A DNA stretch of 64,000 nt from assembly GCA_016870975.1 (NCBI GenBank), contig VGAE01000005.1, positions 1-64,000 on the forward strand. The letters run 5' to 3'. The translations under genes were made by a program, and so were the position numbers. Positions 44,209 to 46,741 of this stretch are shown here, piece by piece (the first letter of the stretch is position 1; every line of letters begins with the position of its first letter). Under the pieces are notes generated by a model. That model saw only the letters and a program-made list of their open reading frames with translations. It was not told where the DNA came from and did no database searches. The stretch comes from Actinomycetota bacterium (GTDB lineage Bacteria > Actinomycetota > Actinomycetes > Nanopelagicales > Nanopelagicaceae).

Positions 44209-45081
44209 ATGACACGTGAAGTTGTAATCATCACTGGAATGAGTGGCGCGGGCCGCTCAACGGTGGCTCACTCCCTGGAAGATTCTGGTTGGTACGTAAT
44301 AGATAATCTTCCTCCTCAACTTCTTACTTCCGTAATCAAAATGACGGAGCACACCGAAGATTCCATCGCAGTCGTCATTGACGTTCGCGGAAGGCAATTT
44401 TTTGGCGATCTAAATAGATCGCTTGCTGATGTTGTCGAAATTGGAGTCTCTAGAAAAATCATCTTTGTCGATGCATCTGATGAGGTATTGATAAGAAGGT
44501 TTGAATCTTCCAGAAGGCCACATCCGCTGCAGCGCAACGACAGAATTTTGGATGGAATTGATAGGGAGCGCGCGAAATTGAACGAACTTCGCGCCAGAGC
44601 AGACTTAGTTGTAGACACCTCACAATTTAATATTCACCAATTGGAACGGAAAATAAATGAACTATTCCAGAGTGGCTCATTAGCTGCTCTCAAGGTAAAC
44701 ACCCTTTCGTTCGGATATAAATTTGGAGTTCCAGCCGATGCCGATTTAGTTATGGACTGCAGGTTTATTCCCAACCCGCATTGGCAAGCAGAACTAAGAC
44801 CGAAAAATGGGTTGGATAAAGAAGTTAGTTCTGCCGTTTTGAGCGCAGCCCAAGTTCCTGAATTCCTCGACCGATATGTTTCCATGTTTGAAAGTGTTGC
44901 AGCTGGATATTTGCGTGAAGGTAAGAAATTCATAACGCTGGCAATTGGCTGCACCGGCGGCAAACATCGCAGCGTTGCAATTGCCGAAGAGTTAGCGAGG
45001 AGATTGAACGGCAAATCACTTACAAGCGATTTCGATATTTCAGCCCACGCAATTCATAGAGATCTAGGCAGGGAACGTTGA
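44209..45081 (+). CDS. rapZ: RapZ/YvcJ family nucleotide-binding protein
   Basis: A 290-residue P-loop protein. The Walker A is GMSGAGRSTVAHSLED at about 7-22, followed by YVIDNLPPQLL, VIDVRGRQFF, RRPHPL and the C-terminal IGCTGGKHRSVAIAEEL. In E. coli RapZ is an RNase adaptor for the GlmZ small RNA; in Gram-positives the family binds nucleotides and its role is unclear. The rapZ-yvcK-whiA trio is conserved in actinobacteria and firmicutes. The gene overlaps the next one by 4 nt (TTGA). Confidence 0.92.
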   Translation: MTREVVIITGMSGAGRSTVAHSLEDSGWYVIDNLPPQLLTSVIKMTEHTEDSIAVVIDVRGRQFFGDLNRSLADVVEIGVSRKIIFVDASDEVLIRRFESSRRPHPLQRNDRILDGIDRERAKLNELRARADLVVDTSQFNIHQLERKINELFQSGSLAALKVNTLSFGYKFGVPADADLVMDCRFIPNPHWQAELRPKNGLDKEVSSAVLSAAQVPEFLDRYVSMFESVAAGYLREGKKFITLAIGCTGGKHRSVAIAEELARRLNGKSLTSDFDISAHAIHRDLGRER

Positions 45082-45758
45082 TTGCAGGGTCAAAAATCGT
45101 CGCATTTGGCGGAGGCCATGCCCTGGGAAACCCTCCCTTGGCTGCATTATGGGATAGAGATCAGGACCCAATCGCAGGCCTTGATTGTGTGGGGCAATTG
45201 TTAAAAGTGGTAGGTCGCGTCCTTCCGATGTCGCGAGAACCTCTAGAAATTCAGGGCAGGCTCCGTACCTGGGAGGGAGCTCAGGTAGTTCGCGGCCAGA
45301 AAGAGGTGGCCCTTGCCAGGGGCGAGCTCGAAGAACTAACTCTCATTCCCGAGAATGCAAAACCAACTGAAGAAGGATTAAGAGCGATTGCTGATGCAGA
45401 TTTTTTGACGATCTGTCCAGGGTCTTGGTTTTCAAGTGTGATGCCACATTTAATAATAGCGCCCCAGCGAAAGGCGATCTGCGAATTAAAAGCTCGCAAA
45501 ATTTTGATTCTTAATTGGCCTGCTAATGTCACGAATCCCCCCGAAGAGCTGGGTGACACTGGGGCAGCCAATCATCTTGAAGTTATTCGCACTTTTGCAC
45601 CTGATTTCAAATGTGATTTTGCTATCGCGGATCAGATAATCACGGGCGGTGAACTCATTTCAAGCCAGATAGCCAGAAATTCCGGGAGTGATCAGCATGA
45701 TTCGAAAAAATTAGCTCTCTGTTCTCGAGAAATTATGAGCGCCGAAGTGATTAGATAA
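45078..45758 (+). CDS. Shortened YvcK/CofD-family protein (CuvA-like)
   Basis: It sits in the yvcK slot between rapZ and whiA and is homologous to YvcK/CuvA, a UDP-sugar-binding protein that supports growth on gluconeogenic carbon and cell-wall synthesis. It has only 226 residues; family members are about 310-340 or more. The N-terminal strand IVAFGGGH (7-14) runs directly into [10 protein letters not shown] (15-24), which matches the later GHxxGNLxLAAL motif. The intervening block with DDGGSSGRLR and PPGDxR is gone. Downstream KVVGRVLPM and [14 protein letters not shown] are intact, and the frame is open. It is either a reduced but functional variant or a decaying gene. Confidence 0.82.
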
Positions 45759-45763
45759 CCCTC

Positions 45764-46741
45764 ATGGCAATGACTGCTTCTGTTAAGGATGAGTTAAGTC
45801 GTCTCTCGGTCTCTAAACCATGCTGCCGGAAAGCTGAGGTCTCTTCAATATTGCGCTTCGCGGGTGGACTCCATCTCACCGCCGGAAAGATCATGGTTGA
45901 AATAGAACTTGATACTGCTCAGGCTGCTCGCAGAATTCGAAAAGATATTGGCGATATTTATGGTCACGAGTCAGACCTCGCAGTAATAAGCGCAGGGGGA
46001 TTACGAAAAGGAAGTCGCTATTTAGTAAGAGTTACTAAAGATGGAGATGCCCTAGCGAGACAGACTGGTTTGGTTGATTCAAATTCGAGGCCAGTTCGTG
46101 GTCTACCACCGCAAGTTGTTTCAGCGGGTGTATGCGATGCGGAAGCTGCATGGCGTGGCGCATTTCTGGCTCATGGTTCATTAACTGAGCCTGGGAGATC
46201 TTCGGCGCTAGAGATAACTTGTCCAGGCCCGGAGGCAGCGTTGGCATTAGTCGGCGCAGCGCGTCGACTTGGAATAACTGCAAAGGCACGAGAAGTCCGT
46301 GGCGTAGATCGAGTTGTAATCAGAGATGGCGATGCAATTGGAGTTTTTTTGACAAGGTTGGGCGCGCACGAAAGTGTGATGGCTTGGGAAGAACGTAGGA
46401 TGAGAAGAGAGGTAAGAGCCACTGCAAATCGATTAGCGAATTTCGATGATGCGAATTTGCGGAGATCTGCCCGAGCAGCAGTCGCGGCTTCAGCACGGGT
46501 ACAGCGCGCTCTAGAAATTTTAGGAGAGGAAATTCCAGGTCACTTACGTGAAGCGGGCGAGCTTCGAATCAATCATGGACAAGCGAGTTTAGAAGAGTTG
46601 GGTTCTTTGGCATCGCCGCCGATGACGAAAGATGCGATCGCCGGAAGAATACGTCGACTGCTTGCGATGGCAGATAAGCGAGCTTCCGAGTTAGGCATTC
46701 CGGATACCGAGGCTGGTCTCACACCTGATCTGCTTGGCTAA
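45764..46741 (+). CDS. whiA: WhiA family DNA-binding regulator
   Basis: A 325-residue protein with an N-terminal LAGLIDADG-like fold ([36 protein letters not shown]) and a C-terminal helix-turn-helix ([20 protein letters not shown], then [12 protein letters not shown]). In Streptomyces WhiA activates sporulation and division genes such as ftsZ and ftsW; in non-sporulating bacteria it affects division and chromosome segregation. ATG 45764 lies 5 nt after the yvcK-like gene; ATG 45770 is also possible. Confidence 0.95.

Follow-up and report, generated by a model that had tools for sequence, protein, structure and literature searches.

GlmR (YvcK, CuvA) has been described as a conserved regulator of Gram-positive bacteria and as an accessory enzyme of UDP-GlcNAc synthesis. 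Its catalytic aspartates are important for function: in Listeria, changes of D40, D41 and N198 lower the uridyltransferase activity ~100-fold, and the mutant gave no rescue of lysozyme sensitivity (PMC10128056), and D38A D39A, a catalytically dead mutant of the B. subtilis protein, does not complement (PMC13046274). The residues that matter most for UDP-GlcNAc binding, Tyr265 and Arg301, belong to the C-terminal part of the protein (PMC5482804). A stimulating effect of GlmR on GlmS has also been proposed in B. subtilis (PMC6171935).

The slot between rapZ and whiA is where yvcK (glmR, cuvA) normally lies. In the window, the 64-kb stretch of DNA analyzed here, this slot is occupied by a 226 aa ORF with a TTG start (45078-45758, +), as an earlier reading of the sequence alone (the sequence-only reading) had noticed, while the corresponding gene of the closest relative encodes 318 aa. 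The upstream rapZ (yvcJ; 44209-45081, +) is intact, and its stop codon overlaps the yvcK start in the sequence TTGA; whiA (45764-46741, +), also intact, starts 5 bp past the yvcK stop. The ORF matches the Pfam CofD profile (PF01933) only at positions 82-288 of 290 (E 5e-27) and the NCBIfam YvcK profile (TIGR01826) only at 82-283, where its 109 bits lie below the curated cut-off of 196. Despite this sub-cut-off score, its descent from the GlmR/YvcK family is clear.

The window belongs to G000, a draft MAG of 1.45 Mb in 81 contigs (88% complete, 5.2% contaminated), of which ~1.25 Mb was examined as stretches. The ORF is the only CofD-family/YvcK/GlmR match found in this genome, and a search of the draft for a second yvcK copy or for the lost block elsewhere found neither. 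The closest relative, G003, is the Nanopelagicales-type MAG REEB480 ('Actinomycetales bacterium'; contig JAGWYB010000015.1); Candidatus Nanopelagicales and Planktophila are among the other named records of its group. The yvcK gene of G003 is 79% identical to the window gene; gene order is identical between the two genomes over the compared stretches, and the flanks on both sides of yvcK match at ~78-80%.

DNA alignment with the syntenic G003 gene showed that 234 bp (78 codons) are missing in frame between GGGH and GHALGN, in agreement with the N-terminal block deletion proposed from the sequence alone. The junction (GGC/CATGCC; 45116-45119, +), whose placement is ambiguous by 2 bp, lies between the near-repeats GGCCACGG and GGTCATGC of the G003 gene; a joint between two similar strings, GGCCACGGT and GGTCATGCC in the relative, had also been anticipated. 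The earlier reading omitted a further in-frame deletion, 42 bp (14 codons) long, which is located near the C-terminus (45641-45662, +, the placement of the gap being ambiguous here) between the near-repeats GGCAATGAGCTAAT and GGCGGCGAACTCGT of the G003 gene. The N-terminal deletion thus measures 78 codons rather than the 85-100 residues given earlier, and both deletions sum to 92 codons. The position of both joints between similar strings would fit deletion between short near-repeats; as only 2 bp are strictly identical there for the first deletion in the comparison with G003, slippage is an inferred mechanism.

The lost block of 78 codons includes VADNGGSSGRLR and LPPGDLR, as had been predicted, and its counterpart of the GlmR catalytic aspartate region is ADNGGSSGRLR. 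The catalytic aspartate block DD(N)GGSSGR, which is conserved in the aligned relatives, is absent from the ORF. The description of the lost part as the UDP-sugar contact region is only partly adequate: it fits the deleted block to some extent, but Tyr265 and Arg301 are located C-terminally to it. A search of 24 genomes of the genus found no other internally deleted yvcK copy, and none of the 108 aligned relatives has a comparable internal deletion, the 4 short copies among them being contig ends. Judged from these comparisons, the yvcK deletion is not a product of chance. We also considered whether yvcK is merely one of many gapped genes in the window, which was rejected: it alone among the genes of the 64 kb shows a large gap relative to G003. 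A reduced form shared within the genus or among the 108 aligned relatives was likewise rejected, none being found; in the wider family, where only the stronger matches were listed singly, such a form may still occur. The common junction by which the sequence-only reading proposed to recognize a real reduced family is present in no relative.

In the structural model of the intact G003 protein, the 78 lost codons hold strand 29-34, helices 41-50, 56-64 and 70-80, and most of helix 13-23, and the 14-codon deletion removes most of helix 268-280. The mean pLDDT of the AlphaFold model was 74.0 for the window protein (modelled from an alignment of the same relatives), falling below 50 at the joint, and 89.5 for the intact G003 protein. 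The nearest solved structures of the YvcK kind are 2O2Z and 2HZB, and the TM-scores to chain A of 2O2Z were 0.60/0.45 for the window protein versus 0.83/0.85 for its intact sister. The counterparts of B. subtilis Tyr265 and Arg301 fall outside the part that could be aligned by sequence to BH3568. With the catalytic aspartates and a core strand deleted, uridyltransferase activity is presumed to be absent, and an enzyme function of the window GlmR is very unlikely.

The retained part of the gene has changed as well, which had also escaped the earlier reading. We compared the 56 columns that are conserved in at least 97% of the 107 other relatives and are present in both the window gene and G003. 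The window yvcK departs at 7 of these columns, six times privately and once in common with G003, while the sister departs at 1 and the 107 others at 0.30 on average (maximum 4). At codons 19-20 (45132-45137, +), within a helix of the intact model, Leu-Leu is replaced by Pro-Pro, both sites being L in 107/107 other relatives. Phe is replaced by Leu at codon 62 (45261-45263, +; F in 107/107), and Gly by Cys at codon 113 (45414-45416, +; G in 107/107), which turns the GPGSW loop into CPGSW. Leu is replaced by Trp at codon 147 (45516-45518, +; L in 106/107) and Gly by Asp at codon 160 (45555-45557, +; G in 106/107). The same test in the same genome gave 0/111 departures for rapZ and 1/243 for whiA, so that yvcK shows the excess of conserved-site change over its neighbours looked for in a pseudogene, with modest likelihood support. 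The comparison of the window with the sister at conserved sites is borderline when taken alone (Fisher p 0.06). Over all sites, 15 residues are specific to the window gene and 8 to the sister, an excess that is not significant, so the relaxation of selection on yvcK is probably recent or partial.

In the codon model, omega was 0.17 on the window yvcK branch versus 0.07 in the background (2dlnL 4.58), and, synonymous sites being close to saturated, omega = 1 on this branch was not rejected (2dlnL 3.36); the model thus leaves drift versus constraint undecided. The pairwise dN/dS of yvcK against G003 was 0.098, a value that mostly reflects the time before the deletions, and the dN/dS of whiA was 0.008. 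The yvcK frame contains neither a stop codon nor a frameshift. However, ~29% of neutral-drift simulations changing ~10% of the codons also stay without a stop, which makes an open frame no more than mildly unexpected, although the two in-frame deletions add to this. Relative to the close full-length relatives, the gene nevertheless carries the disabling change of a pseudogene, with two deletions and the catalytic block gone.

Further losses were seen in G000, some of them in a census of broken genes from which shadow ORFs, and ORFs faulted only for a stop within an over-long start, were set aside by eye. The dxs remnant (contig 1, 61923-62366, -; L164, about 1845-2366) lacks codons 1 to ~469 (1.4 kb) and carries two in-frame stops, TAG and TAA, and no other dxs was found in G000. 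The glmS remnant (contig 11; L157, 6382-6627, -) retains ~66 codons before running into the alr flank, which amounts to a loss of ~1.6 kb relative to G003 between flanks that are 86% identical; beside this remnant, the only other candidate in G000 is a SIS-domain paralogue nearest to NagB-II, which scores under the cut-off of that family. In metH (contig 9, 33211-33711, +; L242), 167 codons are joined in frame to the final few (QAK-YFN), a joint read from the translation, and ~985 codons are lost. The glmU gene is intact. When the comparison was reversed, no similarly cut gene was found in G003 outside the contig ends. The two stops in dxs point to biological losses in G000 rather than assembly errors, and with metH fused in frame, an open reading frame says little for function in this genome.

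Given the proposed effect of GlmR on GlmS, the loss of glmS in G000 may have taken away part of the purpose of GlmR, which we offer as a suggestion only. As a general cause it was rejected, since glmS is still present in most relatives without yvcK, so that glmR can be lost while glmS stays. G000 also harbors remnants of a beta-galactosidase gene, a second glycosidase gene and an alcohol dehydrogenase-like gene. A NagB-II-like SIS protein adjoins a BadF/BcrA-type kinase-like protein (L159, 1756-3653, -), and the two may form an amino-sugar scavenging pair. In another genome, G013, no full-length dxs was found, only an N-terminal fragment of ~50 residues (contig 23) that perhaps marks a contig end.

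In the wider family, yvcK is present in 267 of the 296 genomes searched and in 105/108 of the better ones, and its absence is taken as derived because yvcK occurs throughout the class. In G061, G077, G176, G190, G193, G194 and G224, a spacer of ~100-140 bp with no yvcK separates rapZ from the whiA that comes after it; G034 also lacks yvcK and keeps rapZ, with a rapZ-whiA spacer of ~100 bp. The family search gave no match to yvcK elsewhere in any of these genomes. On the rapZ+whiA tree, yvcK absence takes 5 changes, or 4 without the long-branched G034. Holding seven yvcK-less genomes together, as a single loss would have it, was rejected (p-AU 1.7e-53), while the five yvcK-less genomes of one genus are compatible with one event (p 0.17). 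The spacers (L149-L155, 100-140 bp) differ by lineage, and two of them contain AATTGACCTC, possibly part of a whiA promoter. In G034, whiA itself has a 94-bp out-of-frame deletion (L137, 3700-4000), and in the yvcK-less G061, glmS seemingly consists of two separate ORFs whose matches lie ~270 bp apart (contig 79, 7144-9163).

The window yvcK is thus probably a recently inactivated glmR of a freshwater-type bacterium, at an early stage of erosion, before any stop codon or frameshift. We envisage that glmR came under relaxed selection in the G000 lineage, that errors of replication or recombination between short near-repeats removed the 78 and 14 codons, in either order, and that near-invariant residues started to change; the product, if made, would be expected to lack uridyltransferase activity. 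The same sort of loss has struck dxs, glmS and metH in G000, and other lineages of the family are already fully rid of yvcK while retaining rapZ and whiA. The sequence-only reading had instead preferred a shortened but functional protein that binds its ligand differently. A shortened GlmR maintained by selection in a changed, non-catalytic role, for example as a partner of RapZ, would account for the open frame, for both deletions being in frame and for the preserved rapZ overlap and whiA spacing, and the low dN/dS and a C-terminal half that is mostly still recognizable agree with it. The form is, however, unique to one genome in a family that repeatedly loses yvcK; it lacks a core strand and the catalytic aspartates, bears prolines in a helix and an altered GPGSW loop, and the dead-looking metH of G000 is fused in frame just as well. 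As the second deletion, the six private changes and the broken dxs, glmS and metH favor decay, we regard a selected, reduced GlmR as improbable. Still harder to credit is a shortened GlmR acting as a non-enzymatic regulator in a GlmS-less lineage, with amino-sugar control rewired around scavenged amino sugars.

It is also unlikely, if slightly less so than a functional reduced protein, that reads or strains were wrongly joined and that the organism has a full yvcK. The fragmented, incomplete and partly contaminated state of the G000 draft would allow such an artefact, and several core-gene deletions within one draft genome are suspicious in themselves. At under 10 bases, however, the similar strings of the joint fall short of the overlaps that assemblers normally use. 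Near-invariant residues are changed in the retained part too, the dxs remnant has its two stop codons, and the yvcK flanks match G003 on both sides in a window where no other gene shows such a loss. A dead protein whose frame persists because whiA is supplied with ribosomes that have just translated yvcK would add to decay rather than exclude it, and we see this as a possible but doubtful contribution. The TTGA overlap with rapZ, the 5-bp gap to whiA and the very strong constraint on whiA speak for such coupling, as do the ~100-140 bp of other sequence ahead of whiA in the yvcK-less genomes; on the other hand, two in-frame deletions may reflect chance or ascertainment, an open frame having been picked. 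Within the decay of glmR that we favor, translation through yvcK into whiA could be an extra reason for the open frame.

A family of actinobacteria with small genomes has thus lost GlmR repeatedly, and G000 appears to display an intermediate stage of this process. Having lost most of glmS and dxs, G000 may rely on external amino sugars and possibly on external isoprenoid precursors. Naturally glmR-free genomes offer a place to ask what substitutes for GlmR.

Compared with the GlmR/YvcK/CuvA family (UPF0052, TIGR01826), the window locus shares the rapZ-yvcK-whiA order, the GGGH start, the GHxxGN and PGSW motifs and the C-terminal half, and it differs by the missing 78 codons, the 14 codons missing on the C-terminal side and the six private changes at near-invariant sites. 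CofD/FbiA (2-phospho-L-lactate transferase) has the Pfam family PF01933 and the fold in common with it, but the gene order and the best family match of the window gene indicate YvcK, and its structural match to CofD is more distant. The closest parallel in process is the decay of genes in bacterial genomes that are streamlined or undergoing reduction, in which core genes are likewise cut by deletion, remnants stay in place and independent losses are repeated among relatives. From this decay the window yvcK shows no categorical difference; it appears to have been caught before its frame broke.
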